Below are positions 30,065-50,343 of a stretch of DNA of 64,000 nt, in pieces. The stretch's first letter is position 1. The number at the start of each line of letters is the position of its first letter. The translations under genes were made by a program, and so were the position numbers. The notes under the pieces were generated by a model. That model was not told the DNA's origin. It saw nothing but the letters and a program-made list of their open reading frames with translations, and made no database searches. The stretch lies in contig WGMG01000005.1 in the NCBI GenBank assembly GCA_016125185.1, positions 1 to 64,000 of the forward strand, in the 5' to 3' direction. This stretch comes from Armatimonadota bacterium. GTDB taxonomy: Bacteria > Armatimonadota > Fimbriimonadia > Fimbriimonadales > Fimbriimonadaceae.

Positions 30065-33000
30065 ATGAGGTCCATTTGGCGAATCGAAATGTTCGGCAGG
30101 CTCCAAGCCGAGTCCGAACATTTGACGATCAGCCGCTTCCGCACACGCCGAGTCGGCCTCCTCCTTGCCTACCTCGCTTATTATCCCAAGCGCCGACATT
30201 CGCGCGAAGAGCTCGCCGACATGCTCTGGCCCGACGGCGAAGTGGAAGCATCCCAAAGAAATCTTCGGCAAGCGCTTTCGTCGCTTCGCCATCATTTGGA
30301 ACCCCCTCCGATTCCAGCCGGCGCCATCATCGTTGCCAAGCAGGGGCTCGTCTCGTTCGACTCCGAACTTATTTCTACCGATGTCGCCGAGTTCAACCAC
30401 CTGATCGAAGCCGCCGAGGCCACCCCTTCCAACACAGAAAGGCTCGTGAAGCTATCGCGCGCCATCGACCTCTACCGGGGCGACTTTCTGCCCGGATATT
30501 ACGAAGACTGGGTTCAGCGCGAACGCCTTCACCTGGAGGATCAGTTTGTCTCCGCGCTTCAATCCCTGGTCCAGGCGTTGACCACCGAAGGCAAGAACGA
30601 AGAAGCGATTCGCTATGTCCGGCTCGCCCTCGCCAAAGACCACTTGCGTGAGGACTTCCACGCCTCGCTCATGCGCCTTTATTTGGCCTGCGGGCGACCC
30701 CACAGCGCTCTGCAGCACTTCCGCGAACTACGCGAAACCCTCGCCGAGGAGTTAAACGAAGAGCCCGGTGCAACCATCTCCGAACTCGCCAGCAAGGCTG
30801 AGCGGGAAGCCGGGGGCCAGTGGAATCCCTTACCGACGAATCAATCGGCATCCAACGATGAAGCCGACGCCGCGCCCGTTAGCGACTCAGAACCTATCGC
30901 TTCAAATCTTCCCATCCAGTTGACGCGGTTCTTCGGGCGCGGCAGCGAGCGAACGCAGATCGCAAAGACGCTCTCTGACCACCGCTCCCGCTTGGTGACG
31001 TTGATCGGCACGGCCGGGTCGGGGAAAACTCGACTTTCCATCGAAGTCGGGCGGGATATGGCCCAGATTCATGGCTGGAATGTCTGGTTCGTTCCCCTCG
31101 CCGACGTCTCCGACGGCAGCATGGCGCACCATGTCCTTTCCGAGTCGCTGCGGCTCCAAGCCGAACCCGGCAGCGATCCGATTGAAGTGCTCAATGGCTC
31201 TCTGTCCGGCGTCAAGAACCTTATCATTCTCGACAATTTGGAACATCTGGTCGATAGTGTGGCGCCATTTGTCGACTCCCTCCTCCGAAAGGTCCCTCAG
31301 CTTTCCATCCTTACGACGTCCCGTCAAGCGCTGAAGCTCGCGGGCGAGCACGAAATCGACCTCGCGACTCTGCCTATTCCCGATCCCGACCAGATTGGCG
31401 AAAACGACCTTCGCGAACTATCCACCGTCCCGAGCATCCAGCTTTTCCTCGATCGTGCTCAGGCCATCGTCCCTGATTTTCAGATCACACGCCATAATGC
31501 CCGTTCGATCGCTTCTATCTGCATTCAACTCGATGGCCTGCCCCTCGCGCTTGAGTTTGCGGCCGGCATATCCAACTCCTTCACGCCCGCCCAAATCCTC
31601 CAAAATCTGGAAAGTAGGCTCGAAATCCTCCGTAATCGAAGGCGTGATATCCCCAACCGCCACCGCACGCTCCGCGCCGCCATCGACTATAGCTACGATC
31701 TTCTAACCCCCGAACTCAAGCGTTTCTTTGCTCACTTGTCGGTTTTTCGAGGCGGGTTTACCATCGAAGCCGCCGCCAAAGTCTGCCTTCCCTGCTCCTG
31801 CGCATTCGACGGCCCTTGCGGAGAAAAGGGTGCCACAGAAGAATGCCTGGGCATGATCCTCGATCTCCGCGAGCGCTCCCTTTTGCGCATGGATGCGTCC
31901 AACGATGAATCCGCCCCGGCCAGATTTCGCCTGTTAGAGTCGTTCCGAGAATACGGCATAGGTCTGATCGAGGCCGCGGATTTCGATCCCTTGCGACAGC
32001 GACACGCCGAGTACTATCTCAATCTTCCGGCCACTCCAAATGTTTCGAGCGTCGACGAGGTGTCATGGGACCGTGACAATCGTCTCGCCGCCCTTCGTAC
32101 TTTCGAAAAGTCTGGCCGCATCTCTGAATGCGTCCGAATCCTCTATACGTTGCGCGGTTATAGCCAAGCCGGACGTCCCACCATTCTCGCCCTCTGCAAA
32201 TCGCCCGACTTCGACTCCTTCCCTCCGATGGACCAGATCATGCTGCTACGTCTGATGGCCGACGCCCAGCTCTACCCTTCCGAGTTCGAGGAGTCCTATG
32301 CCGTCTCCATGCGCGGGCTTGAGATTGCTCGAAAGCATGGACTGGAGGATCAAGAAGCCATTTGCCATCGATCGGTCGCCGCTGCCGCCGTTCATCTTGG
32401 GAGGTTGGATGAAGCCATCGCCCACGACGAGCATTTCCTTGCCTATGGGCTGAAGGCCCAAAATCCGCTCATCCTTGAGTCCGCCTACAGCGCCCTCGGA
32501 ACCAACCACTGGACCGCCGGCGATCTCCACGGTGCCTTGGAAGTGTTTTGCCAGGGTATGGCCGTCTCGAAATTCGCTCATGACGGAGAGCCCATGTGGC
32601 CCCTCCTCTACAACCTCGCGCGAGTTCACCTCGACCTTGGAAACCTTGACGACGGGCTTCAATTGGCCAGTGACGGACTGCGCCAGACGCAACGTCGCAA
32701 CGAGGAGTTCGGCATCTCGATGTTCCTCGCTCTGATTGCCCGCCACCAGCTAAAGCGAGGAAGCTTTCATGCGGCGCTTGCCACCAATCGGGAGGTTCTC
32801 ACCAAACGACGAAAGATCGGCTTCCGATACTGGACGCTCTGTGCTTTGCAAACCCACGCCGCCGTCCTCGCCGCTCTCGACCGCTTTACCGAAAGCGCAA
32901 CCCTTCTTGCGGCCTCCCGAGACACCCTCAAACTCCGTCGAAAAATCGACGATGACGAATACGCTGCGACGATCGAAAGGGTGAAGAAGGCGCTGCCGCT

Positions 33001-33082
33001 ACCCGACTTCGAGGAGGCTTGGGCGAGAGGCATCGCGATTCCGCTCGAAGACGCCTACCGGCTTGCTGTCGCCACAAAATAA
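30065..33082 (+). CDS. SARP/BTAD-type transcription factor with STAND ATPase and TPR repeats
   Basis: The protein has 1005 residues. The N-terminal OmpR-like DNA-binding domain (about 1-95; HSREELADMLWPDGEVEASQ) is followed by BTAD (about 97-240; YRGDFLPGYYEDWVQRERL). An AfsR-like ATPase follows with Walker A GTAGSGKT (315-322), a Walker B-like LIILDNLEHLVDS, and a GLPLALEFAA motif. A winged-helix-like and TPR-rich C-terminus (about 640-1000) completes it. In Streptomyces, AfsR-like proteins activate secondary metabolism; the target here is unknown. A C-x-C-rich stretch (CLPCSCAFDGPCGE, about 575-588) in the middle is unusual and could bind metal. Confidence 0.9.
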   Translation: MRSIWRIEMFGRLQAESEHLTISRFRTRRVGLLLAYLAYYPKRRHSREELADMLWPDGEVEASQRNLRQALSSLRHHLEPPPIPAGAIIVAKQGLVSFDSELISTDVAEFNHLIEAAEATPSNTERLVKLSRAIDLYRGDFLPGYYEDWVQRERLHLEDQFVSALQSLVQALTTEGKNEEAIRYVRLALAKDHLREDFHASLMRLYLACGRPHSALQHFRELRETLAEELNEEPGATISELASKAEREAGGQWNPLPTNQSASNDEADAAPVSDSEPIASNLPIQLTRFFGRGSERTQIAKTLSDHRSRLVTLIGTAGSGKTRLSIEVGRDMAQIHGWNVWFVPLADVSDGSMAHHVLSESLRLQAEPGSDPIEVLNGSLSGVKNLIILDNLEHLVDSVAPFVDSLLRKVPQLSILTTSRQALKLAGEHEIDLATLPIPDPDQIGENDLRELSTVPSIQLFLDRAQAIVPDFQITRHNARSIASICIQLDGLPLALEFAAGISNSFTPAQILQNLESRLEILRNRRRDIPNRHRTLRAAIDYSYDLLTPELKRFFAHLSVFRGGFTIEAAAKVCLPCSCAFDGPCGEKGATEECLGMILDLRERSLLRMDASNDESAPARFRLLESFREYGIGLIEAADFDPLRQRHAEYYLNLPATPNVSSVDEVSWDRDNRLAALRTFEKSGRISECVRILYTLRGYSQAGRPTILALCKSPDFDSFPPMDQIMLLRLMADAQLYPSEFEESYAVSMRGLEIARKHGLEDQEAICHRSVAAAAVHLGRLDEAIAHDEHFLAYGLKAQNPLILESAYSALGTNHWTAGDLHGALEVFCQGMAVSKFAHDGEPMWPLLYNLARVHLDLGNLDDGLQLASDGLRQTQRRNEEFGISMFLALIARHQLKRGSFHAALATNREVLTKRRKIGFRYWTLCALQTHAAVLAALDRFTESATLLAASRDTLKLRRKIDDDEYAATIERVKKALPLPDFEEAWARGIAIPLEDAYRLAVATK

Positions 33083-37164: not shown

Positions 37165-38437
37165 GACATCAGCCGCAAGTCTTCGTAAAACGAGGCTATC
37201 CCTTGGCGAAGGCAAATGGAGAATAGCGACATCGGGACGGTGGCGAGGATTCGTCGATGGTCAAAGGGGGTCAGCCCCCTGGGAGGGTGGGCATCTTGCC
37301 CACCAAAGCGAAATCGTGTCCTTGAAGACGAGGCTGTCGCCTATCCCCCGGTTCACGATGTTCACCGGCCCCTTCCTCAAGGGGCATCTTGGCTGGTCAG
37401 CACGATTTAGGTTGATGCACCGACTCGACCTCAATCTCCGAATAACCACGCTACTCCCAGGTAGGGTCCGCAATGAATACTGCCACAAAGGCAGGATTCA
37501 TGTGGAGTGGCTGAACGCAGTGAAGCCGTAGGGAGGATTCGTGGATGGTCAAAGGAGGTCAGCCCCCTGGGAGGGTGGGCATCTTGCCCACCAAAGCGAA
37601 ATCGTGGCACTGGTAAAGGCGTCTGCTTGTCCGCCGAAGTCCGAGGGACGAGGACGAAGGAGGGCGAAGCTGGGATTTACCAGTGTTGGTTGGTGAACAT
37701 TCAGCCTCCTCCCCTCCGGTTTGCTTCGCGCACCGGCTCCCCCCAGGGAGCAGCGTGGTTACTAGGCTTGAAGTGAGTTGATACCAATTCGCCGTTTTGT
37801 AAAAGTCCGTGTTTGATAGTGCACCGACTCGACCTCAATCTCCGAATATCCACGCTACTCCCAGGTAGGGTCCGCAATGAATCCTGCCATAAAGGCAGGA
37901 TTACAAGCCTTGTCCTCGCAGGACAAGGCTATCCCTTGGCGAAGGGATCGGTGAGAGAATCAAACCGAGGGATAGACGACAAACTGCAACGAATACCCCT
38001 CATTGGCGTATCGCGGTTAGTACGCGTCAGAGATGACGGGACGGCTCCATCGAAAAGAGACTTTTTTCCCCATACCGATGTCGCTACGCTCCACCTCATG
38101 CAAACGTGCCTCTGTGGACCTTTGCACAAGGGCTCTTCCTTCGGCGGGATCTAAGGAGTTCGCTTCGCTTACCGTCTCCTCCGTGGAGCAGCGTGGTTAG
38201 TCGGCTCGTCCGAAGCTTTTTCACCTATCCCCCGGTTCAATCCTCGTTCCTCGGATTTCACCGGCCCCTTCTTCAAGGGGCATCTTTGGGTTGCCGTCAA
38301 AATCAGAGGCCGTTGTGGTTCGTACTCTCAACTTCAATTCCTAAGTAGCCACGCTACTCCAAGGGAAATCGCGCTTCCAATCGTGCCACAAGGGCCGTCG
38401 TGATTACTCGGCGTGACTCAGGTTGATACCAACTCGC
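37165..38437. repeat. Gene-free mosaic repeat block 7
   Basis: No gene is supported in 1.27 kb. Visible parts: two copies of AGGTCAGCCCCCTGGGAGGG / GGGCATCTTGCCCACCAAAG (about 37263-37310 and 37555-37606), reversed stem-loop elements (37332-37388 and 38224-38285), CTATCCCTTGGCGAAGGGAT...CCGAGGGATAG (37928-37975), a complete inverted-end unit with the common core (37705-37890), and GCAGGATT hairpins (37480-37503 and 37880-37903). Neighbouring copies are close relatives, for example 37255-37310 and 37550-37606. Confidence 0.85.
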
Positions 38438-38728
38438 TTACTGAGGCGTGTGGAGCTTGCGACGCAGGATTTGCTGAGACTCCTGCAATTCGGTGATCGT
38501 CTGGCGGCCGACTCCTCGGATGTTTTCGATAACGGCTAGGTCGGCCTTGGCCAAAGCGTCGGCCGTGAGGATGCCATATTCGAAAAGAAAGTTGATCGAC
38601 CTCGTGGAGAGGGGCAACGCGTATTCATCCGCCATCGTCTCCAGTCGAATCGTTTTCCGATACACGGTATGGAATTCTACTTCGTAGGGCCAAGCGAGAA
38701 GGATAGGGCCGCCAAATTTGACGGCCAC
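38438..38728 (-). CDS. Small protein resembling the RNA polymerase alpha C-terminal domain
   Basis: The protein has 96 residues. Residues 38-90 (LPLSTRSINFLFEYGILTAD, ENIRGVGRQTITELQES) follow the helix-hairpin-helix pattern of alpha-CTD (usually ELSVRSxNCL...NxGRKSLxEI). The first 37 residues are unlike alpha. It begins three bases after the cysN stop, so it is the last gene of the sulfur operon. Alpha-CTD binds UP elements and activators, so a free domain could modulate transcription or simply bind DNA. The alternative is a HhH protein of other function; the fold call is firmer than the role. Confidence 0.6.
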   Translation of the reverse strand: MAVKFGGPILLAWPYEVEFHTVYRKTIRLETMADEYALPLSTRSINFLFEYGILTADALAKADLAVIENIRGVGRQTITELQESQQILRRKLHTPQ

Positions 38729-38731
38729 CCT

Positions 38732-40366
38732 CTATCCGGTGCCCACCAGATAGGGCTCCAGGCGGTGCGCCAAATCCGCCCCGTCCACGTCACCCGACCT
38801 CGCGTATAGCGTGCCCAGCTCGTCTTCCGGCAAGGCGTCGTCGGTCAGAATGATCTGCACATCACCGCCCTTGGCCAGCACAATCACGATCGCGCCCTGG
38901 CGGCTTAGCACCTGCGCGACGTTCCAAACCTCAGTCTCGAAGTCGAGGCCCGACCCATCGAACAGATCGGCGCCGAGGCGTACCGTCCGATATCCCGCCT
39001 CCCTCAGGTGTGCTTCCAGCTCAACCGCGATTGAAACCGAGCCTTCTAGCCCAACGATCAGACCTTTTTGAACCACCGATTCGCGCAGTCCCGCGTCAAC
39101 GTCTACCTGGGTCCGCGTGATCATTCCCGCCGCAACCGGCACGTTGACCGCCGGGTCGATGAGAATAAACCCGCCCGTCGCCCGATTGTCCTGATACGTG
39201 TCCAAAAACAGCGGTCGAGACGTCGTGATCGCCACGCGTCCGATCTCGTTGAGTTCCAGCGTTTCCGCCCCGACCCGCTCCAGCGTTTCGATATCTAGCC
39301 GATAGTCGATCGCCCGCACTTGGCCCGCCGCTTCCCGAGTCGAATGCGCCACGATGTAAGGTCGGTCGAGCTTCAGCGGTTGCTCGCCCATCCAGCAGAT
39401 CGTCGCCTCAAACGCTTGAGTCGAATCGATGGAATGCTCAACCCGGACCAGCGTATCGCCCCGGCTCACATCGATCTCGTCCTCCAGCGTCAGGATCACC
39501 GAGTCGCCGACCCGAGCCGACGTGAGTGAGCCATCGGCCGTCTCGACCGAACGAACTCGGGAACGAAGACCGTTTCGGGCCACCTTCACCTCCGCACCGA
39601 CGCTGATCTCCCCGCCCGTAATCCTCCCGGCAAAGCCGCGAAAGTTCTGGTCGGGCCGGATCACGCATTGAACCGGCAGCCGAAAGAGCCCATGCGAGGG
39701 GTCGGCTTCAAGCGGAACGGTCTCGAGGTACTCGAGGATTGCCGGTCCGCCGTACCAAGGCATATTCCGGCTCCGTTCGACCACGTTATCGCCCTGCAGG
39801 GCCGAAATCGGCACGAAGTCCACCGTCTGGTCGCTCATCCCGGCCAAAAAGGTTCGAAACTCAGACTCGATTTGGCGAAAAACGCTCTCCTCAAACCCCA
39901 CCAGGTCCATCTTGTTCACCGCGACCACGACCCTCGGCACCCGCAGCAAAGCCGCGATGACCGCGTGGCGGCGAGACTGATTCAGCAGGCCCTTTCGGGC
40001 ATCCACAAGAATCAGGGCGAGGTCCGCCGTCGAGGCGCCGGTCACCATGTTACGCGTGTATTGAGCGTGCCCCGGCGTGTCCGCGATGATGAATCGCCGC
40101 TTCGCCGTCGAAAAATAGCGATAGGCCACGTCGATGGTGATCTGCTGTTCCCGCTCGGCACGAAGCCCGTCGGTCAGCAGAGCGAGGTTAATATCCTCCC
40201 CATCGCTCACCCGCAGGATCGCCTCGTACTGGTCGTCGGGAATCGCCTTCGAGTCGAAAAGCAACCGCCCGATCAGCGTGCTCTTCCCATCGTCCACGCT
40301 TCCCGCCGTCGAGATGCGCAAGACCTCGTGTCCGCCTTCGGCGGTTTTTGGTTCTACGGTCGTCAT
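38732..40366 (-). CDS. cysN: Sulfate adenylyltransferase GTPase subunit CysN with degenerate APS kinase-like tail
   Basis: The protein has 544 residues. GTPase motifs are GSVDDGKS (22-29), DTPGH (96-100) and NKMD (151-154), followed by EF-Tu-like domains to about residue 420. With CysD it forms APS from sulfate and ATP. Residues 428-540 look like a shortened APS kinase (CysC) domain: GLEGSVSIA (439-447) stands where GLSGSGKSTIA is expected, so the P-loop Lys and Ser/Thr are lost, and the length is about two thirds of normal. CysN-CysC fusions (CysNC) are common, so this appears to be a fusion whose kinase has decayed. It starts one base from the cysD stop. Confidence 0.93.
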   Translation of the reverse strand: MTTVEPKTAEGGHEVLRISTAGSVDDGKSTLIGRLLFDSKAIPDDQYEAILRVSDGEDINLALLTDGLRAEREQQITIDVAYRYFSTAKRRFIIADTPGHAQYTRNMVTGASTADLALILVDARKGLLNQSRRHAVIAALLRVPRVVVAVNKMDLVGFEESVFRQIESEFRTFLAGMSDQTVDFVPISALQGDNVVERSRNMPWYGGPAILEYLETVPLEADPSHGLFRLPVQCVIRPDQNFRGFAGRITGGEISVGAEVKVARNGLRSRVRSVETADGSLTSARVGDSVILTLEDEIDVSRGDTLVRVEHSIDSTQAFEATICWMGEQPLKLDRPYIVAHSTREAAGQVRAIDYRLDIETLERVGAETLELNEIGRVAITTSRPLFLDTYQDNRATGGFILIDPAVNVPVAAGMITRTQVDVDAGLRESVVQKGLIVGLEGSVSIAVELEAHLREAGYRTVRLGADLFDGSGLDFETEVWNVAQVLSRQGAIVIVLAKGGDVQIILTDDALPEDELGTLYARSGDVDGADLAHRLEPYLVGTG

Positions 40367-40367
40367 C

Positions 40368-41288
40368 TCAGAAGTAGCCCAGTCGCTTGCGGTCCTCCAT
40401 CGCCGCCTCGGATCGCTTGTCGTCGCCCCGCGTATTTCGCTCCGTCACGCGAGTCAAGCCAAGCTCGACGATCACCTCTTCGATGGTCCGTGCCCGAGAC
40501 TCGATGGCCCCGGTACAGGTCGCGTCGCCGATGGTTCGGAACCGAACCTCCTTCTCCAAAACGGTCTCGCCGGGCAGGGCCGCCGTGTAAGGCGTGTCCG
40601 CATAGAGCACGCCTTGCCGCAATATCACGTGCCGACGATGGCTAAAGTACAGGCTTGGCATTTCGATTTCGCGGGCTGCGATATATCGCCAAATGTCAAG
40701 CTCGGTCCAGTTGCTGAGGGGGAACACTCGGAAGTGCTCGCCCGGATGCTTTCGGCCGTTGAACAGGCTCCAAAGTTCTGGTCGCTGGGCCTTGGGGTCC
40801 CATTGCCCAAACCGGTCTCTAAACGAGAAGAACCGCTCCTTGGCTCGCGCTTTTTCCTCGTCTCGGCGTGCGCCGCCCATCGCGGCGTCGGCCTTCAGGT
40901 CGGCAATCGCTTCCAGCAGGGTCTGCGTCTGCAGGCCGTTTCGGCTGGGGTGCGGCCCCGGCTCTTCCACGAGCCGCCCAGCGTCGATCAGTTCCTGCAC
41001 CTGCTTCACCACGAGGTCGCATCCGAGCGACTCGGCAAACCGTTCGCGAAACGCCAAAGTCTCCTCGAAGTTGTGGCCGGTATCGACGTGCACCAGCTTG
41101 AACGGAACCCGGGCCGGAGCGAAGGCGCGCGCCGCCAAGTGTGCGAGCACGATCGAATCCTTCCCACCCGAAAAGAGGAGGATTGGCCGCTCAAACTGCC
41201 CGAAAACCTCGCGGATCACATAGATCGCTTCCGACTCTAACGCGCGAAGTCCGGCGTCGAGCGGTTGTCTCACTTGCGTCATCACCAT
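40368..41288 (-). CDS. cysD: Sulfate adenylyltransferase subunit 2 CysD
   Basis: The protein has about 306 residues. The PP-loop SGGKDS (40-45) and HVDTGHNFEET, RRDEEKARAKERFFSFRD and SNWTELDIW are all CysD hallmarks. It makes APS and pyrophosphate from sulfate and ATP, driven by the CysN GTPase. I chose the ATG at 41288, six bases after GGGAGA; the longer frame is antisense to cobA. It overlaps the cobA stop by seven bases. Confidence 0.95.
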   Translation of the reverse strand: MVMTQVRQPLDAGLRALESEAIYVIREVFGQFERPILLFSGGKDSIVLAHLAARAFAPARVPFKLVHVDTGHNFEETLAFRERFAESLGCDLVVKQVQELIDAGRLVEEPGPHPSRNGLQTQTLLEAIADLKADAAMGGARRDEEKARAKERFFSFRDRFGQWDPKAQRPELWSLFNGRKHPGEHFRVFPLSNWTELDIWRYIAAREIEMPSLYFSHRRHVILRQGVLYADTPYTAALPGETVLEKEVRFRTIGDATCTGAIESRARTIEEVIVELGLTRVTERNTRGDDKRSEAAMEDRKRLGYF

Positions 41289-42085
41289 CGGGCATCTCCC
41301 GCATGGCAAAGCTCCCTTGACAGCTCGCGTAGGAGGTCGTTTTTGGCCGTCGATGCCGACGCCAGTCGCTCTCGAATGCCGACGGTATCGCCTACCACGA
41401 CGGTAGCGGGAGGGCGAACCTCCTTCGCTAAATCGACGATGGTCTCCAAAGTGCCGACGACCACTTCTTGCTCGGGCAAAGTCCCTTGCGAAACGATGGC
41501 AACCGGCGTTTTGGGCGACCGCCCGTAGCGAATCAAGTTCTCCACGATCACGGGCAGCCGCTCGACGCCCATCAGGAACACCGCCGTCGGAATCAGCGCC
41601 GCCGCCCGCCAGTTGTTCTCCTCCAGGCCGCTTTTCTGACCTTCCCGACCGGCAAAAACCGCAAACGCGCTCGCCACTCCGCGATGGCTGACCGGAATGC
41701 CTGCGCTTGCCGGAGCCGCGATCGCCGAGCTCACGCCCGGTACCACCGTAAACGAAAGACCTTCCGCCGCCAGGGCCAGCGCTTCCTCGCCGCCGCGTCC
41801 GAACACAAACGGATCGCCACCTTTCAGACGGACGACCGTTTTCCCTTTCCGGGCCCAAGCGATGAGGCGCTCGTTGATCGACTCCTGCCGATTGATGTTT
41901 CTTGCGCCAAGCTCTTTGCCGACGTACTCGCAGACCGCCTCTCGCGGCGCGTAGTCCAGCAACTCTGGATTCACCAGCCGGTCATAAAGAACCACCTCGG
42001 CCCGTCGCAGAGCGTCCGCCCCGCGAACCGTGATCAGTCCGGGATCGCCGGGACCGGCGCCGACGAGGTACACGTGGCCGCTCAT
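41282..42085 (-). CDS. cobA: Uroporphyrinogen-III C-methyltransferase
   Basis: The protein has about 267 residues. Motifs: VYLVGAGPGDPGLITVRGAD at the N-terminus, VVRLKGGDPFVFGRGGEEA and VVPGVSSAIAAPASAGIPV, all typical of SUMT. It adds two methyl groups to uroporphyrinogen III, the first step to sirohaem, the cofactor of the sulfite reductase encoded upstream. The start overlaps the upstream gene by four bases. In enterics this activity is fused to the dehydrogenase as CysG; here they are separate. Confidence 0.95.
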   Translation of the reverse strand: MSGHVYLVGAGPGDPGLITVRGADALRRAEVVLYDRLVNPELLDYAPREAVCEYVGKELGARNINRQESINERLIAWARKGKTVVRLKGGDPFVFGRGGEEALALAAEGLSFTVVPGVSSAIAAPASAGIPVSHRGVASAFAVFAGREGQKSGLEENNWRAAALIPTAVFLMGVERLPVIVENLIRYGRSPKTPVAIVSQGTLPEQEVVVGTLETIVDLAKEVRPPATVVVGDTVGIRERLASASTAKNDLLRELSRELCHAGDARW

Positions 42086-42750
42086 GAGACCCTCCGTTGC
42101 CCAGCCGCTGCCGTGTCGAGCAGGCGCTCCATCTCGGCGTCCGCCGCCAACGCGTTTCCGTCGGCGATGAAGCCGGGAACCGCCGACGCCAACACGTCTT
42201 CCCAAAAGCTCTTGCGAACTCCGTAGCCGACCAATCGATCCTTGACCGCCGGTCGCCACGAGCCCAAGAACTCGGCCAACAAGCCGGCTTCCGGTTCCAA
42301 AATCTCGTTCGCAATGCGATTGCGAATCTTCTGAGCCAGCGCTGGACTGCAACCCGACGAGGACACCGCGACCTGCACCGGCCCGCGCCGAACCATTGCC
42401 GCCATGATGAAGTTGCAGTAGTCCGGGTCGTCAACCGCATTCGCCAGCCGGTTCAGGCGGTTTCCCGCCTCGTAGACCTCGCGGTTGACCTCCATGTCGT
42501 CCGTCGCGCCGATGACCAAAAAGAACGGCAAAACGTCTTCGGGCACAAACTCGCGAGCCAGCCACTCCACCTCGCCTGCCTCGTGCCAGTCCGAAATCGT
42601 GTCCAGCGCCTGGGGTGCGATCACAGTCACCCGTGCGCCCGCATCCTTCAGACCGGTGATCTTTTCGACCGCGATTGGACCACCGCCAACGACGAGGCAC
42701 GAACGCCCCTCCAGGTGGAGGAACACCGAATGGTAGGTTGGGTAGCTCAC
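42082..42750 (-). CDS. Precorrin-2 dehydrogenase/sirohydrochlorin ferrochelatase (CysG N-terminal type)
   Basis: The protein has 222 residues, the size of Met8p/SirC/CysG-B. The NAD-binding SCLVVGGGPIAVEKITGLKD lies near the N-terminus, followed by VIAPQAL, VIGATDDMEVN and NAVDDPDYCNFIMAAMVRRG, then VAVSSSGCSPALAQKIRNRI. It oxidises precorrin-2 and probably inserts iron to give sirohaem. It overlaps the genes on both sides by four bases. Confidence 0.92.
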   Translation of the reverse strand: MSYPTYHSVFLHLEGRSCLVVGGGPIAVEKITGLKDAGARVTVIAPQALDTISDWHEAGEVEWLAREFVPEDVLPFFLVIGATDDMEVNREVYEAGNRLNRLANAVDDPDYCNFIMAAMVRRGPVQVAVSSSGCSPALAQKIRNRIANEILEPEAGLLAEFLGSWRPAVKDRLVGYGVRKSFWEDVLASAVPGFIADGNALAADAEMERLLDTAAAGQRRVS

Positions 42751-44360
42751 TCTTCCTGGACTCCCACCTGCACCGGTGTATCGACCCCTTCGGCAAACGG
42801 AACTTGCATCAGCGCGGCGAGGTCGTCGTCCGAATTGCGATCCACAAACCCGCTAAAGTCCTCGTCGATCTCTCGCTGATCCAAATAACCGTTGATCAGA
42901 TGCTCGATCGCATACTTCACCTGTGTCGCCGGGACCTTACGCCAAATCGGCCGAACGAACTTCGAGTCGCGTCCCAGTCGGCCGCCGAGCGAAATATCGT
43001 AGCCGTCGACCTTGTCGGTCCCCTGCTTCACCAAGCATCCCTGCAGGCCGATGTCCCCGATGTGGTGCTGGCCGCACGAGTTCGGACATCCGTTGAGGTT
43101 GATACGCAAAGGCTCGTCCAGCGAAACGGTTTCGTCCAAATGCTTCACGATTTCGATGAGCAGATTCTTTGTCTCCGTCAGGGCCAAATTGCAGAATTCG
43201 TTGCCGGTACACGCCACCGCCGCTCGCCGAATCGACGAGACTCGGTGATACAGTCCGGCCGCCTCCAGCTCCGTCAGAAACGCTTCCAATCGCGCTTCGG
43301 GGATATCCGAAAAGATCAGGTTTTGCTGGTTGGTCGTACGCAAAATGCCGTTGCCGTACTCTTCCGCCAGCCGCCCAGCTTCGATGAGTTGATCGCCGGT
43401 CATGCGTCCGGTCAGCACCACCGCCCCAACCCAGAAGAGCCCGGCTTGCTTCTGCTCGTGGACCCCCACGTGGTCGCGGAAGTTCTTTCGCGGATCGAGA
43501 ACGTTCAGGGCCGGATCGGGCGACCAGTCGAGCCGAGCCCGCACTTCTTCCTCGAACTTCTCGATGCCCCATTCGGCGACGAGGAACTTGATGCGTGCCT
43601 TCTTGCGATTCTCGCGGTTCCCATAGTCGCGGAAGACTTCGGTCGCCGCCCGAAAAACGTCGACCAGTTTGTCGCACGGCACAAACATATTCATCTGCTG
43701 GGCAAAGAAGGGCCGCGAAGACAGTCCGCCGCCCACCCGAATGTGGAACCCGTTTTCGAACTCGCCGTTCGGAAGTTCGCGGCGGACGCCGGTCGCGGCG
43801 ATGTCGTTGATCTCCGGCTGCGCGCAGTTCTCGGGGCATCCCGAAACCGCCAGCTTGTACTTTCGCGGCAGGTCGGAGAAGTCCTTGTTGTCTAAGAAGA
43901 ACTGGTGTACGGCCTCGACATACGGCTGGGCGTCGAACACTTCGTGGGGGTCGATGCCCGCCACCGGACAGCCGGTCACGTTGCGCGGAATATCGCCGCA
44001 AGCGCCCGACGAGGTGATTCCGACCGAATCGAGACGAGCAAAGATGTCGGGAATGTCCTCGACCGTCAGCCAGTGGAACTGGAAGTTCTGCCGCGTGGTG
44101 ATATCCGTGATACCCCGCGCATAGATGTTCGCGATCTCGCCGATCACCTTCGCCTGAGGGCTCGTGATGATGCCCCCCGGAATCTTGACTCGAAGCATGA
44201 AGTGGCCAACGTTCGGCTTCTGTTGGTACAGCCCGTACCAACGCATGCGCAGGAAGTCGTCGGGATCGATGGAATCGAACCCAGTTTTGGAGTAGCGAAC
44301 GATGTCTTCCCAGACATCGAGACCGTCTTTTTCTTTCTTAATGCGTTCTGCGTCGTTCAT
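42747..44360 (-). CDS. sir: Ferredoxin-dependent sulfite reductase (sirohaem)
   Basis: The protein has about 537 residues, the single-subunit ferredoxin type. Four cysteines ligate the 4Fe-4S/sirohaem: C384 and C390 in ACTGNEFCNLAL, and C425 and C429 in NGCPNSCGQH. The N-terminal half has TRQNFQFHWL. The family also contains assimilatory nitrite reductase; the operon (APS reductase, cysteine synthase, ferredoxin) favours sulfite. I chose the ATG at 44360 (MNDAERIKKEK); the upstream extension is antisense to cysH. The electron donor is probably the ferredoxin at 46838-47080. Confidence 0.9.
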   Translation of the reverse strand: MNDAERIKKEKDGLDVWEDIVRYSKTGFDSIDPDDFLRMRWYGLYQQKPNVGHFMLRVKIPGGIITSPQAKVIGEIANIYARGITDITTRQNFQFHWLTVEDIPDIFARLDSVGITSSGACGDIPRNVTGCPVAGIDPHEVFDAQPYVEAVHQFFLDNKDFSDLPRKYKLAVSGCPENCAQPEINDIAATGVRRELPNGEFENGFHIRVGGGLSSRPFFAQQMNMFVPCDKLVDVFRAATEVFRDYGNRENRKKARIKFLVAEWGIEKFEEEVRARLDWSPDPALNVLDPRKNFRDHVGVHEQKQAGLFWVGAVVLTGRMTGDQLIEAGRLAEEYGNGILRTTNQQNLIFSDIPEARLEAFLTELEAAGLYHRVSSIRRAAVACTGNEFCNLALTETKNLLIEIVKHLDETVSLDEPLRINLNGCPNSCGQHHIGDIGLQGCLVKQGTDKVDGYDISLGGRLGRDSKFVRPIWRKVPATQVKYAIEHLINGYLDQREIDEDFSGFVDRNSDDDLAALMQVPFAEGVDTPVQVGVQEE

Positions 44361-45088
44361 GATCGTTGGATCCTTGAGTGCAAACCGCACTCTTTGTGCT
44401 CGGGAGCCTCCCACCACCAGCGGCCGGCTCGAATGTCTTCTCCCGGCTGAATCGCTCGCGTACAGGGTGCGCAGCCAATGCTGGGAAATCCTTGGTCGTG
44501 GAGAGCGTTGTAGGGCACGTTGTTTTGGCGGATGTATTCCCAAATCTGGGCCTCCGTCCAATCTGCCAGCGGGTTGAGCTTGACAATGCCCCCGTGGCTC
44601 TCATCGATTTCAATCTTGGGGAGCGACGTCCTCGTCACCGCCTGCTCGCGGCGAAGGCCCGTCACCCATCCGTCGCACCCGCTCAAAGCCCGTCGAAGCG
44701 GTTCGACCTTTCGAATGCCGCAACACTCCTTCCGGTTCTCGATGGACTCGTAGAAGGAATTCGGTCCCTTCACACTCAGCAGGCGCTGAATCCGTTCGGT
44801 ATCTGGATAGTAGGTTTCAAACTCGATTCCGTACTTCGCCCGAAAGCGGTCCATCACCTCGTAGGTCTCTTGGTGCAGACGCCCGGTGTCCAGCACGAAG
44901 GGCACGATGCCGAGGCCGTTTCGGGAGACGATGTCCACCAGCGCGACGTCCTCTGCCCCAAAACTGCACGCCAGTCGAAGACGGTTTGGGAACCGCTCGA
45001 CCGCCCACGCCAAAAGCTTTTCGGGCGTTTCGTGCTCGAAAAGCCGGTTCAGGTCTTCGATCTCGGTGACTTCTAGGAGGGTGCTCAT
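44357..45088 (-). CDS. cysH: APS reductase (CysH)
   Basis: The protein has 243 residues. The paired cysteines C122-C123 in ECCGIRKVEPL and C206/C209 in IGCAPCTRA ligate a 4Fe-4S cluster, the mark of enzymes that reduce APS rather than PAPS. The catalytic Cys234 is in HKECGLH. This explains why the APS kinase part of CysN could decay. It overlaps sir by four bases and is one base from cysK. Confidence 0.95.
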   Translation of the reverse strand: MSTLLEVTEIEDLNRLFEHETPEKLLAWAVERFPNRLRLACSFGAEDVALVDIVSRNGLGIVPFVLDTGRLHQETYEVMDRFRAKYGIEFETYYPDTERIQRLLSVKGPNSFYESIENRKECCGIRKVEPLRRALSGCDGWVTGLRREQAVTRTSLPKIEIDESHGGIVKLNPLADWTEAQIWEYIRQNNVPYNALHDQGFPSIGCAPCTRAIQPGEDIRAGRWWWEAPEHKECGLHSRIQRS

Positions 45089-45089
45089 G

Positions 45090-46001
45090 TCAAAAAAGGT
45101 CGTCGATCGACAGGTATCGCTCGCCAGTGTCGTAGTTGAAGGTCAGCACCCGGCTGCCATCGGGAATCTCGGGCAGTTTCTGGTTCACCGCGGCCAGGGA
45201 TGCTCCCGTTGAAATGCCAACGAGCAAGCCTTCCTCCAGCGCCGCTCGGCGGGCAAAGCCGAAGGCGTCGGCCTCGTCGACCGGAATCGTTCCGTCCAAG
45301 ATGTCGGTGTGAAGGTTCTGCGGAATGAACCCCGCGCCGATGCCCTGGAGGCGGTGCGGACTGGGGGACCCGCCCGAAATCACCGCCGACTTCGCCGGTT
45401 CGACGGCGAACACCTTGAGGTTCGGATAGCGGGTCTTCAGGACCTCGGCCACACCGGTGATGTGCCCGCCCGTGCCCACGCCGGTGATCACGTAATCCAG
45501 CCCTTCGGGAAAGTCGGCAAAGATTTCCTCCGCCGTCGTTCGCTTATGCACCGCAATGTTAGCCTCGTTGTCGAACTGGCTGGGAATCCAGGCGTTGGGT
45601 AGGGTTGCTGCCAGCTCTTGGGCTCGCGCGATCGCGCCGTTCATGCCTTTCTCGCGCGGCGTCAGCTCGAACTTCGCTCCGTAGGCCGACATCAGCTTGC
45701 GCCGCTCGACGGACATCGATTCGGGCATCACAAGGATGATTTCGTAGCCCTTGACCGCTGCGACCATCGCCAAACCGACGCCGGTATTGCCCGAAGTCGG
45801 CTCGACAAGGACGCTGTCGGGGCTCAAAATCCCCCGCTCTTCTGCGTCCTCGATCATCGAAAGGGCGATGCGGTCCTTGATGCTCCCGCCCGGGTTGGTA
45901 CGCTCAAGCTTGATCCACACCTCGACATCGCGGTCAAAGAGGCGATTGATTTTGAGGTGGGGCGTATTGCCGATGAGGTTCAGTACTGATTCGCTTTTCA
46001 A
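45090..46001 (-). CDS. cysK: Cysteine synthase A
   Basis: The protein has 303 residues. The PLP lysine is in GGSIKDRIA (about 38-46), the substrate loop is TSGNTGVG (about 69-76), and the PLP phosphate loop is [10 protein letters not shown]. It makes cysteine from O-acetylserine and sulfide. The upstream cysE supplies O-acetylserine. The C-terminal part carries DTGERYLS, standard for CysK. Confidence 0.96.
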
Positions 46002-46017
46002 AGTTAAAACTCCTGGG

Positions 46018-46863
46018 TTAGATGTTGAAATCGTGTAGTTCGTAGGTTGTTTGGTCGTTGGTGCTGCGCACCGTGTTGCGGTGGCTGACCACCGAGTGGG
46101 GAGGAATGCTTTCCGTGATCCAGCTATTGCCGCCGATGACGGAACCAGCGCCGATGCGGGTGTCGCCGCCCAAGATCGTTGCGTGGGCGTAAATCACCAC
46201 CTCGTCCTCGATGGTTGGGTGGCGCTTCACCTTCGCCAGCCGTTTGTACACGTGGAGAGCCCCTAGCGTCACGCCTTGGTAAATCTTCACCCGGTCGCCG
46301 ATCGTCGAGGTCTCGCCGATCACCACACCGGTGCCGTGGTCGAGGAAGAAGGACCGCCCAATCGATGCGCCCGGATGGATGTCCACCCCGCTTTGCCGAT
46401 GGGCGTGCTCGCCCAATAGCCGCGGCAGGAGCGGCACGCCAAGCTCATACAGGGTGTGCGCGATCCGGTGGGTGGCGACGGCATAGAAGCCGGGGTAGGC
46501 GAGTATGATCTCATCCAGGCTCTCGGCCGCCGGGTCGTTTTGGTAAAACGCCTCGGCATCCTCCAGCAGAAGCTCGTAGACGTTCGGCAGAGCCGCCAAG
46601 AAGGACTCGGCGATCTCCAACCCTACGGTGGGGTAGGTCTCGCGCAGGTCCCTAAGAGCCTCGTTCAACTGCACTTTCAGCAGGTCGTATCGGTTCTCGA
46701 TGCGAACTCCATCCTGGGCAAAATGAGGAAAGAGGAGCGAGAGCGAACTCGCCACAAATCGGTTGGACCAGGCGCGAAGATCCGACCGGTATGGGTACCG
46801 GGCGTGCGCTTCTGCCAGTCGGTCGGTAAAGGCGGTCTCAGTCACGTTTGTAGCCGTTCTCAC
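46018..46863 (-). CDS. cysE: Serine O-acetyltransferase
   Basis: The protein has 281 residues. A helical N-terminus (about 1-150) is followed by the left-handed beta-helix with hexapeptide repeats and the active site [20 protein letters not shown], then [15 protein letters not shown]. It acetylates serine for cysteine synthesis. The long N-terminus resembles the EpsC/SrpH group. The C-terminus DFNI, ending in Ile, fits the tail by which CysE binds CysK. It overlaps the ferredoxin gene by 26 bp. Confidence 0.94.
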
Positions 46864-47080
46864 GGTTGAGATCGATGTAGTGCCGCCAGTTCTCGGGCAC
46901 TTCGCTGTCGATCATGATGGCGTTGACCGGGCACTCCGACTCGCAAAGTCCGCAGTCGATGCACTCCTCGGGGTTGATGTAAACCATGTCCTCCCCTTCG
47001 TAAATGCAGTCGACGGGGCAGACCGTGACGCAGGACTTATCCTTGACTCCGATGCAGGGTTCTAAAACGACGTAGGGCAT
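46838..47080 (-). CDS. Ferredoxin, seven- or eight-iron type
   Basis: The protein has 80 residues. The cysteine pattern is C-x7-C-x3-CP (CIGVKDKSCVTVCPVDCIYE) followed by CIDCGLCESECPVNAI. The second motif CxxCxxCxxxCP holds a 4Fe-4S cluster; the first has the spacing of a 3Fe-4S or modified 4Fe-4S cluster, as in FdxA-like proteins. The start is ATG at 47080; the longer frame adds non-conserved residues. It probably donates electrons to the sulfite reductase. A 112-bp gap separates it from ssuC. Confidence 0.93.
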   Translation of the reverse strand: MPYVVLEPCIGVKDKSCVTVCPVDCIYEGEDMVYINPEECIDCGLCESECPVNAIMIDSEVPENWRHYIDLNRENGYKRD

Positions 47081-47192
47081 ATCGATTTTCCGGTTGGGTG
47101 AAGTGAGGCGGCAACGGCGCGGCCCAAGGTTTGGCGAGAAGCAAGTGACTCGACGCGTCGTCGAAGTCGAATCACGGAAACAGAAAAGGTCG

Positions 47193-47948
47193 TCATGATG
47201 TGGCAAACCCCCAACGCTGACGAACATGGGTCTCGAGCGGACGGAAGAACAGATGCTCCGCCCCCAACCCCAGCGCCATGATGACGATCATCACCGCCAG
47301 CACCTGGCTCATATCCGCCAGTTCGCGCCCCATCATCAAGATGTGCCCCAGGCCGAGGCTGACGAACAGCAGTTCGCCGCTCATCAATGCGCGCCAGGCA
47401 TACGACCAGCCCAGCTTCGCCGCCGTCAGCAGGGCGGGTTGGGAAGCCGGAATCAGCACTTCGGTGTAGGTTCGCAAGGGCGAGGTGCCCATGGTTCGCG
47501 CCGCCCGGAGGTAACTCGGCGGAAGATGGCGAACGCCATCCTTGACCGCCATCGCGATGGAAACCAGCGACCCCATGACGATGACGAACAGGATCGCGCG
47601 GTCATTCAGCCCAAACCAAAGCAAGGCCAGAGGGAGCCAGCAGATGCTGGGCAACGTCTGAAATGCGCTGACCAGCGCCCCCACCGTATCCTCGATCCAT
47701 GCGACCTGGGCCAGCAGGGCTCCCAACGGCAGCCCGATCCCCAGCGAGATCGCATAGCCCAGGCACACCCGCCTCAGGCTCACAATCGTCGCATTCAGGA
47801 GCGTGCCGTCCCGACCGAGGTCCGCCAGGGTTCCCGCCACCTTGGCCGGCGACGGAAACAGCGTCGAATCCCAGATCTGACGCTGGGCCACAAACGCCCA
47901 CGCGGCGATGAGGAAGACGAAAAACAGGGCGGTGCGGAGCGCCTTCAT
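47193..47948 (-). CDS. ssuC: SsuC-like ABC transporter permease
   Basis: The protein has about 251 residues with six hydrophobic segments. The permease loop motif is ASQPALLTAAKLGWSYAWRALMSGEL, matching SsuC/TauC/NrtB permeases. The start ATG at 47948 overlaps the ATPase gene by four bases. Substrate: aliphatic sulfonates or sulfate esters are favoured by the neighbouring cysteine genes, but nitrate or taurine cannot be excluded by motif alone. Confidence 0.88.
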   Translation of the reverse strand: MKALRTALFFVFLIAAWAFVAQRQIWDSTLFPSPAKVAGTLADLGRDGTLLNATIVSLRRVCLGYAISLGIGLPLGALLAQVAWIEDTVGALVSAFQTLPSICWLPLALLWFGLNDRAILFVIVMGSLVSIAMAVKDGVRHLPPSYLRAARTMGTSPLRTYTEVLIPASQPALLTAAKLGWSYAWRALMSGELLFVSLGLGHILMMGRELADMSQVLAVMIVIMALGLGAEHLFFRPLETHVRQRWGFATS

Positions 47949-48730
47949 ATGTACATCGCCTCCGACACATCGTCGATGCCGATGCCGTACTTCATCTCCA
48001 TCGAGATGCGCTTGGCCAGCCGAGCCACGTCTGCGTCGTCCACTTGACGCGGCCGCAGAATGCGAACGTCGAAAATCGACTGAATACGCCCGGGTCGGGG
48101 CGTCATCAAAACGACTCGGTCGCCGAGCGTCACCGCCTCGCGGACGTTGTGGGTCACGAAGATCACACTCGTCGCCGAAGCCTGCCAAAGCTCCTGCATT
48201 TGGTCGTACAGGTCCTCCCGCGTCAGCGCATCGAGGGCGGAAAACGGCTCGTCCATCAAAACCACTTTCGGATTGGTGACCAGCGCCCGAGCGATCGCCA
48301 CCCGCTGCCGCATGCCACCCGAAAGCTCGTGGATGTTCCGATTCTCGAACCCTGCGAGTCCGACGTTGGCCAGAAATTCGCTTGCCCGCTCCGCTCGCTC
48401 TTTGTCCGAGACGCCCAACTGGCGAAGCCCAAACTCGACGTTCTTCTGCACCGTCAGCCAAGGAAAAAGCGCGCCGTCCTGGAATACGACGGCTCGGTCC
48501 GGCCCCGGACCTTCGATCGGCCGCCCATCGATCGTCAGCAGCCCCGAATCCACTTTTTCAAGGCCGGCGATCACGTTAAGCAAGGTCGATTTCCCGCACC
48601 CGGACGGCCCAACCAGCATCACAATTTCGCCTGGCTCGACCTCTAACGAAACATCCGAGAGAGCCTGGACCACATGCCCACGACTGCTAAAAGTCTTGTT
48701 GACGCCTTCGATCACCAGTTGAGAACTCAT
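47945..48730 (-). CDS. ssuB: SsuB-like ABC transporter ATP-binding protein
   Basis: The protein has about 261 residues. Walker A is GPSGCGKST, the signature is LSGGMRQRVAIARAL, and Walker B is VVLMDEPFSALD. FQDGALFPWLTVQKNVEFGL is typical of the SsuB/TauB/NrtD group. The start ATG is at 48730 (MSSQLVIEG); the in-frame upstream part is antisense-like to ssuA and not used. It overlaps both neighbours by four bases. Confidence 0.9.
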   Translation of the reverse strand: MSSQLVIEGVNKTFSSRGHVVQALSDVSLEVEPGEIVMLVGPSGCGKSTLLNVIAGLEKVDSGLLTIDGRPIEGPGPDRAVVFQDGALFPWLTVQKNVEFGLRQLGVSDKERAERASEFLANVGLAGFENRNIHELSGGMRQRVAIARALVTNPKVVLMDEPFSALDALTREDLYDQMQELWQASATSVIFVTHNVREAVTLGDRVVLMTPRPGRIQSIFDVRILRPRQVDDADVARLAKRISMEMKYGIGIDDVSEAMYI

Positions 48731-49767
48731 CGTTGGCGATCCTTGCGCGCTCGCGTGAGAGCTTGCGTATCGATCAATCCTGAAAGGCTGACCTCGGACG
48801 GCTTTTGGTACCCCGCTACCGTCGCGGCTTTTGCAAAGCTGTCGATGCTCTCCTCGTTCGGGTCCTCGCTGAACAAAACATGCGACCAAGCCTCGTTCAG
48901 CACGTCGCCCTCCAGCGCCTTGCCCGTCAGCCGCTTCAGCTCCGAGTTGACCGCCACCTTGGCCTCCGCATCGTGTTGCCGAATCCATTCGAGGGTGTCG
49001 AGGTGGGCCCGCAAGACGTTGGTCACGACATCCGGGTGGGCGTCGGCAAACTCGGCACGGACCACCAGCACCGTTGTGCTGAACTTCCCTTCCGGCCAAA
49101 GATCGCGCTCGTCGACGACGGTCTTAGCTCCCGCCTCCTTCTTGATGCGGGCCGCCCAGGGTTCGGGGACCCAGGCCGCGTCAACCTGTTTTTGGAGAAA
49201 GAGAGCGAGAATGTCGGGGTTTTTGATCGGCGCAATCTCGACCGTGCCCCCGCGCTCTTTTGCCCGTAGGCCGTTCTGACTGAGGAAATAGCGGCAAGAA
49301 ACGTCCTGGGTTCCGCCAAGCTGAGGCACCGCCACGCGCTTGCCGTCCAAATCGCGGACGCCGGAGATTTGGACATCGGCCCGCCGAATCAGCGACGCGC
49401 CACCCAGGCACGCCCCCGAGATGATCCGCAACGCCTTCCCGTTGGATTTCAGATAGGCATTGACCGCCGGACTGGGGCCGACGAAGCTAAAGTCGATTTC
49501 TTTGGCCAAGAGCGCTTCGATCGCCTCGGGTCCCGCGTTGACCACCATCGGTTCCACCCGGTAGCCCGCCAGGTCCCGTTGCCAAATCCCTTTTCCGATC
49601 CCGATCAGACCGGGCGCGTGGGTGATGTTGGGAAAGTAGGCAACGCGAATCGCTCCGCTTTTGCCCCGGCTAGCGGCCGGAGCATCCTTCGGACCCAGGA
49701 AGATCAGCCCCGCCGATACGGCGAAGAGGGTGAGCGCGGGCAACCCAAGCTGACTTCCGAAATTCAT
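48727..49767 (-). CDS. ssuA: SsuA-like substrate-binding protein of a sulfonate ABC transporter
   Basis: The protein has 346 residues. An N-terminal hydrophobic segment (about 6-25) acts as signal or anchor. Motifs VAYFPNITHAPGLIGIGKG and GPEAIEALLAKEIDFSFVGP match the NMT1/SsuA family. It captures the substrate outside the cell and delivers it to SsuBC. It is the first gene of the operon on the minus strand. No lipobox cysteine is visible, so it is probably soluble or N-terminally anchored. Confidence 0.88.
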   Translation of the reverse strand: MNFGSQLGLPALTLFAVSAGLIFLGPKDAPAASRGKSGAIRVAYFPNITHAPGLIGIGKGIWQRDLAGYRVEPMVVNAGPEAIEALLAKEIDFSFVGPSPAVNAYLKSNGKALRIISGACLGGASLIRRADVQISGVRDLDGKRVAVPQLGGTQDVSCRYFLSQNGLRAKERGGTVEIAPIKNPDILALFLQKQVDAAWVPEPWAARIKKEAGAKTVVDERDLWPEGKFSTTVLVVRAEFADAHPDVVTNVLRAHLDTLEWIRQHDAEAKVAVNSELKRLTGKALEGDVLNEAWSHVLFSEDPNEESIDSFAKAATVAGYQKPSEVSLSGLIDTQALTRARKDRQR

Positions 49768-49779
49768 CGTCTCTCCAGA

Positions 49780-49829
49780 ATAGACTATTTAGTCCATAGA
49801 GTATTAGATTAAACCTCAATACGGCACAA
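49780..49829 (-). promoter_or_regulatory. Candidate promoter and operator of the sulfur operon
   Basis: On the minus strand TTGTGC (49824-49829) and TAATAC (49801-49806) are 17 bases apart, a possible -35/-10. Just downstream is the 12-bp perfect palindrome GACTAAATAGTC (49783-49794), where a repressor would block the start site. The Rrf2 gene 90 bp upstream is the natural candidate regulator. Confidence 0.45.
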
Positions 49830-49884
49830 ATGGCCTACGAATTCGATTTGAAAGTTAACAAACGAAGGAAAATCGGCGCGACGC

Positions 49885-50343
49885 CTAAATGATGTAATTG
49901 AGAATCTCGTCCTGGCCTTCGTCAGCTTTGCGCTGTCGATCGCGAAGATCGGCGAAGGTCGTTTCGTTCAGGACTCCCAGCATCGCCTTGGCGACTTCGT
50001 CGAGGGCGTTGCGGATGGCGCAGGTCGACGGGTTTGGACAACCACAATCGTTAAAGTTGCCGGACACATTGCAGCTCAAATCGACAACGGCGCCGTCCAT
50101 GGCGGCAAGGACTTGACCGAGGGTGATGTCCTCGGGAGCCACCGCCAGGCAGTAGCCGCCGCCCGGCCCTTTTCGACTGGTGAGGAAGCCGGCCTGCTTG
50201 AGATCGAGCAGAATCTGCTGGAGATATTTGAGGGGCACCTTTTGCCGGTCGGCGATATCCTGAATGAGGATCGGCCCTCCCGGATACTGAAGACTGAGGT
50301 CCAAGAGAGCCCGCGTGGCATACCGGGCTCGGCTCGACAGCAT
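49885..50343 (-). CDS. Rrf2 family transcriptional regulator
   Basis: The protein has 152 residues. A winged helix-turn-helix (RYATRALLDLSLQY; IQDIADRQKVPLKYLQQILL; GFLTSRKGPGGGYCLA) is followed by a cysteine-rich segment SCNVSGNFNDCGCPNPSTCA with four cysteines close together, as in IscR/NsrR/CymR relatives. It could sense iron-sulfur status or, like CymR, cysteine supply. It is encoded directly upstream of ssuA in the same orientation. Confidence 0.9.
   Translation of the reverse strand: MLSSRARYATRALLDLSLQYPGGPILIQDIADRQKVPLKYLQQILLDLKQAGFLTSRKGPGGGYCLAVAPEDITLGQVLAAMDGAVVDLSCNVSGNFNDCGCPNPSTCAIRNALDEVAKAMLGVLNETTFADLRDRQRKADEGQDEILNYII

Follow-up and report, generated by a model that had tools for sequence, protein, structure and literature searches.

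An orphan protein with a free-standing alpha-CTD-like helix-hairpin-helix domain encoded after cysN in an Armatimonadota genome

The window, the whole 64,000-nucleotide stretch of DNA analysed here, carries directly after cysN a minus-strand gene whose product appears to consist of roughly one helix-hairpin-helix (HhH) domain resembling the C-terminal domain (CTD) of the RNA polymerase alpha subunit. The reading that we prefer, and hold with moderate confidence, is that this is a small orphan protein that would bind DNA, is of mobile origin and stands behind cysN incidentally. The window protein is an orphan addition to the free or modular alpha-CTD-like HhH domains. Outside RNA polymerase such domains seem little studied, and a free version of 75 amino acids (aa) that has most of the DNA-contact residues and lacks the sigma-facing acid would offer a simple test, in nature, of a stand-alone alpha module.

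The small gene and its paralogue

The open reading frame (ORF) comprises 96 codons on the minus strand (38438-38728), and its first GTG lies 3 nt past the cysN stop codon. The initial annotation had described 96 residues beginning three bases after cysN; comparison with a second copy in the same genome (C1:249830-250042), 64% identical over the whole length, upheld the ORF and points to a later start. In the paralogue, an in-frame stop precedes the GTG aligned to window GTG 38665, with just seven codons in between and no start codon among them, and the DNA similarity of the two genes extends from 17 nt before GTG 38665 to near the stop codon. Because the paralogue frame is closed just upstream of the aligned GTG, the start is probably GTG 38665, judging from this alignment, which would give a product of 75 aa (38438-38665, minus strand) beginning 66 nt after cysN, so that 21 N-terminal residues would have to be dropped from the 96-aa version of the protein. 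The start 3 nt after cysN was rejected on the same comparison, and the in-frame extension up to the first GTG (38666-38728, minus strand), for which the paralogue has a stop upstream and no counterpart with a start codon, is probably untranslated; translation from GTG 38728 instead is possible.

Between the window gene and the paralogue, dN was 0.27 and dS was 1.39, and the 71 codons compared held 20 first-, 14 second- and 36 third-position differences. By these substitution patterns the pair shows purifying selection, and the small gene is, at the level of sequence, real and under selection. Both copies also share an N-terminal RKTIRLE stretch, which is missing from RpoA tails, and have similar ends.

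Resemblance to the alpha C-terminal domain

The protein had initially been called an alpha-CTD-like helix-hairpin-helix, and this call was borne out by Pfam, by PDB sequence matches and by hhalign against RpoA tails. Against PF03118 (RNA polymerase alpha C-terminal domain; curated cut-off 23.8 bits), the window protein scored above the cut-off both as 96 aa (26.6 bits) and as 75 aa (27.5 bits), and the stretch matched in the whole-genome search lay at 38480-38617 on the minus strand (profile positions 18-63 of 67, 26.5 bits); the paralogue scored 20.6 bits, under the cut-off. With a profile derived exclusively from 53 RpoA tails, the window protein reached 23.9 bits and the paralogue 19.1 bits, while the top score among 2000 shuffles of the window protein was 7.1 bits, so its resemblance to RpoA tails is not due to chance. 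PDB sequence matches at E <= 1 comprised 15 distinct sequences, 14 of them alpha subunits with the T. thermophilus alpha-CTD 1doq as the best (E 7.4e-4), the sole other being a dynein regulatory protein (E 0.79). When the small-protein family, defined by two sequences (the window protein and the paralogue), was compared with four RpoA tails, hhalign returned 94.4% (E 9.4e-8, 49 columns). By sequence, the domain is rightly called an alpha-CTD-like HhH, and the corresponding fold is predicted from that sequence. Its score of 17.6 against the NCBIfam rpoA model (cut-off 227.8) places the protein outside RpoA itself, and a separate rpoA of the same genome sits on contig C9; lacking the N-terminal domain of alpha, the small protein cannot serve as a subunit of RNA polymerase.

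AlphaFold models predicted from the single sequence, which for proteins this short are weak tests of fold, were too unreliable to use and speak against an easy confirmation by structure. The 75-aa model was poor (pLDDT 58.0), and in a 62-aa model (pLDDT 80.4, pTM 0.41) the second helix comprised residues 22-58 and ran through the expected hairpin, with no HhH fold shown. When the two models were searched against PDB folds, one had 5 matches and the other 23 at E <= 10, with no match at E 0.001 and no significant alpha-CTD.

For the residue comparison, both copies were aligned to 53 distinct RpoA tails from related genomes, and we take the DNA-contact residues of alpha-CTD to be R265, N268, G296, K298, S299 and E302 (E. 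coli numbering). The equivalents of R265, N268, G296 and E302 are retained in both copies, and the window protein is ungapped between the R265 and G296 positions; at the S299 position both copies have T, K298 is replaced by Q or N, and C269 by F or L. Because the contact residues are largely kept, DNA contact by the small protein is plausible, and binding would occur via the hairpin and helix face used by alpha. A passage of PMC4495994 describes the alpha residues that contact the UP element as conserved between bacteria; a literature search for papers that name three or more of four of these residues returned none. As for sigma, E261 of alpha-CTD points to sigma domain 4 according to a passage of PMC7419079, and the 261 position holds D or E in 47 of the 53 RpoA tails, is gapped in 6 and is proline in both free copies; sigma contact is unsupported because this acid is replaced. 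The earlier proposal of a DNA- or sigma-contacting domain thus stays plausible in its DNA half and is unsupported in its sigma half. Taken together, the window protein is like the RpoA CTD in its family match over the cut-off and in the four retained equivalents, but unlike it in the proline at the acidic 261 position, the altered K298 and C269 positions and an N-terminal extension of its own, and unlike RpoA as a whole in having neither the alpha N-terminal domain nor the linker.

Relatives and signs of mobile origin

With the protein as query, matches at E 0.01 were found in 9 of 61 genomes, the own genome included, and in the other eight they fell in 331-352-aa frames with scores of 18-21 bits, which is what RpoA would give. 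Across 291 genomes of the phylum, the same query gave matches at E 0.001 in 7, namely the own genome, five with frames of 335-344 aa and one (G265) with a 378-aa frame. The two-sequence profile matched in 56 of the 291 at E 0.01, mostly, own genome aside, in frames of more than 300 aa; two short-frame matches (G022 and G126) scored over 70 bits against PF03118 and are thus pieces of RpoA, and two profile rows (G143 and G131) covered profile positions 2-21 alone. A 78-aa frame in G139 (E 4e-4) was rejected as a probable chance match; an ATG is lacking ahead of its final residues. Protein and two-sequence-profile searches together recognised no copy in the other 290 phylum genomes. Pattern-based contig scans, which may miss diverged copies, recovered no relative at E 1e-3 in genome contigs, whether by protein or by alignment, and no close homologue in viral contigs. 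The window protein had no tblastn match at E 0.1 in phage and plasmid collections; the paralogue matched two Novosphingobium plasmid records at the chance level of E 3, and their translated region held, by eye, no alpha-CTD-like protein. A PHROGs search gave nothing useful and an Rfam search gave no match, and among the papers listed by literature searches we found no report of a free-standing alpha-CTD protein, which is no proof of absence.

Domains of this type occur in larger proteins of the phylum. The best match outside the own genome was the G265 protein, whose 378-aa frame carries two alpha-CTD-like domains, and in the 15 genomes chosen because more than one match was counted in each, the second matches were mostly to frames of 323-1599 aa, with shorter ones of 92, 153 and 179 aa. 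The two-repeat gene of G265 (contig C184, locus L073, 523-1647) is divergent from a frame that resembles, by eye, a type I restriction methylase subunit, and an 864-aa frame in G239 (contig C55, locus L087, 1366-3138) combines two alpha-CTD-like domains with what looks by eye like a sigma-region-4-like HTH.

Among the best non-RpoA models were those of PglW (PDLC02512, PADLOC E 5.8e-5; NF033442, NCBIfam E 1.1e-4), a BREX protein in which, according to a passage of PMC12839542, a domain structurally like alpha-CTD is located after the kinase. The match covers about 60 of about 1400 positions at 20.1 bits against a cut-off of 990, which leaves the small protein outside the PglW family; in contrast to the window domain, which stands alone, that of PglW is part of a very large kinase with several domains. 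A hypothetical free protein of 72 aa from Bacillus phage vB_BpsM-61, BpsM61_00022, has its domain similarly placed, but it is 22% identical over 54 aa and does not keep the R265 and N268 equivalents. Its match is weak (E 0.02 with the paralogue as query; none at E 0.1 with the window protein), and its own scores against Pfam HHH_5 and PF03118 lie beneath their cut-offs; the gene is at 2956-3174 of phage locus L111, between ssb and more small genes. HhH frames of 64-83 aa (LPKxxxPAxRAL type; L101-L109) form a family of their own, present in congeners and also in the own genome (L108). These proteins are likewise free-standing with weak PF03118 matches, but they have another consensus and, by eye, differ at the R265 and N268 positions, and they were rejected as a different family; outside the own genome there were 11 weakly matching rows, of which eight were read, all except G144:C44, G014:C13 and G146:C162.

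The two copies differ in their surroundings. The paralogue lies downstream of an HTH_Tnp_1 transposase frame, in a region whose families include an RHS-repeat protein, ArdC, an N6_N4_Mtase DNA methylase, a ThiF/JAB protein, a Multi_ubiq/Prok-E2_E ubiquitin-like protein and an HTH/Peptidase_M78 protein, and no cys gene was seen in the 19.9 kb read. This island (C1:240000-259900) contains the ThiF/JAB and Multi_ubiq/Prok-E2_E genes as a pair. The stop codon of the window copy adjoins a dispersed-repeat tract of about 1.2 kb (37200-38437; families D1-D7), with 102 own-genome matches, the tract included, and with local repeat families in two and three copies; the last repeat ends at 38437, and its 16-base end has only two exact occurrences in the genome, both inside the tract. 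The small gene probably arrived with mobile DNA, given that two diverged copies exist here while the 290 other phylum genomes searched yielded none, and that one copy is located among mobile and conflict genes and the other next to dispersed repeats. No integrase, att site or element end was noticed at the window copy in the course of the reading. The GC content of the small gene is 0.553, vs 0.589-0.638 in eight cys genes (cysD, SUMT and sir being taken with approximate starts), and its GC3 is 0.711, vs 0.720-0.786; because GC3 is close to that of the cys genes, base composition argues only weakly that the gene is foreign. Many of the own-genome repeat matches lie on contig C5, and the tract itself separates the small gene from what looks by eye like an AraC-type gene.

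The sulfur operon and alternative explanations

The small gene follows a same-strand run whose families are typical of a sulfate-assimilation operon, all on the minus strand. Next to it lie cysN, for the large subunit of sulfate adenylyltransferase (38732-40366; TIGR02034 546.8 bits, cut-off 336.1), and the cysD frame (40368-41858; TIGR02039 407.2 bits, cut-off 396.6), an over-long ORF in which the CysD match starts at residue 203-204. Beyond them, NCBIfam models identify siroheme genes (uroporphyrinogen-III methyltransferase and a siroheme synthase N-terminal domain), a gene of NirA/sulfite reductase type, cysH, cysK, cysE, an ssu-type ABC transporter and Rrf2 (41282-50343). Neither a terminator-like nor a sigma-70-like site was found in 38100-39200, and since shuffles of this interval average only 1.1 terminator-like sites, the missing terminator is weak support for co-transcription. 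The small gene is probably co-transcribed with cysN by read-through from the cys operon; of the earlier statement that it closes the sulfur operon, the same-strand position after cysN stands, and the closing of a transcript is something we infer.

CysN-like matches at E 1e-60 occurred in 10 of 20 genomes of the genus, at 16 places. The small gene is beside none of the 15 cysN loci other than its own (14 in nine other genomes and one further cysN in the own genome), each read about 1.0-1.4 kb past the cysN frame; the CysN proteins at these loci are 41-53% identical to that of the window, and not all need be orthologues. The initial annotation had tied the gene to cysteine biosynthesis and named a survey of cys operons in relatives as a check, with absence next to cysN counting against the idea; this survey found the gene absent beside cysN throughout. 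As there is also no close homologue elsewhere in the phylum sample, and the sole close relative lies in a mobile-looking region, a conserved role in cysteine synthesis is not supported, and we rejected a conserved cys link. Most likely the gene stands after cysN by chance and would be transcribed by read-through from the cys operon, with no dedicated regulatory link.

A dedicated regulator of the cys operon would be a free domain, made together with the sulfur enzymes, that sits at the cys promoter, either on UP-element-like DNA or on the alpha-CTD target of an activator, and exerts feedback by competition with RNA polymerase. The same-strand location directly past cysN, with no terminator-like site between, and the largely retained DNA-contact residues agree with such a role, but the empty positions beside the other 15 cysN genes, a phylum sample that holds no copy except in the own genome, the distance of the paralogue from cys genes in the region read and the lost acid for sigma contact make it improbable. 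A cys regulator, if true, would matter more than the orphan reading, and it is against this that the comparative evidence speaks. Since the DNA face is kept, the protein could also be a free alpha-CTD decoy, co-expressed with the sulfur genes, which would compete with alpha for activators or for UP-element DNA and leave core and sigma untouched; we see a slim chance of this, and if true, transcription would be tuned by a stand-alone copy of the polymerase's own upstream-DNA-binding domain.

Another alternative to the preferred reading of an incidental mobile orphan is a DNA-binding accessory of a mobile or anti-phage system, in the manner of PglW or the tandem-domain G265 protein, whose domains are now free and kept for that role. 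The standing of the PglW models among the best family matches, the two-domain 378-aa-frame protein as best match elsewhere in the phylum and the conflict-type genes of the paralogue island all point this way, but no defence gene was seen adjoining the window copy and the PglW matches span so small a part of that protein, and we consider the accessory role possible though rather unlikely. That such domains sit within larger phylum frames (as do the majority of second matches from the 15 genomes) would also fit a decaying piece of a larger gene, e.g., of an alpha subunit or a multidomain protein; a start common to both copies, a shared RKTIRLE stretch unlike RpoA tails, a near-identical place of the stop codon and purifying selection leave this origin very improbable. 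Elsewhere in the window, a large frame at 30065-33082 looks by eye like a regulator of BTAD/SARP type that includes an NTPase portion.
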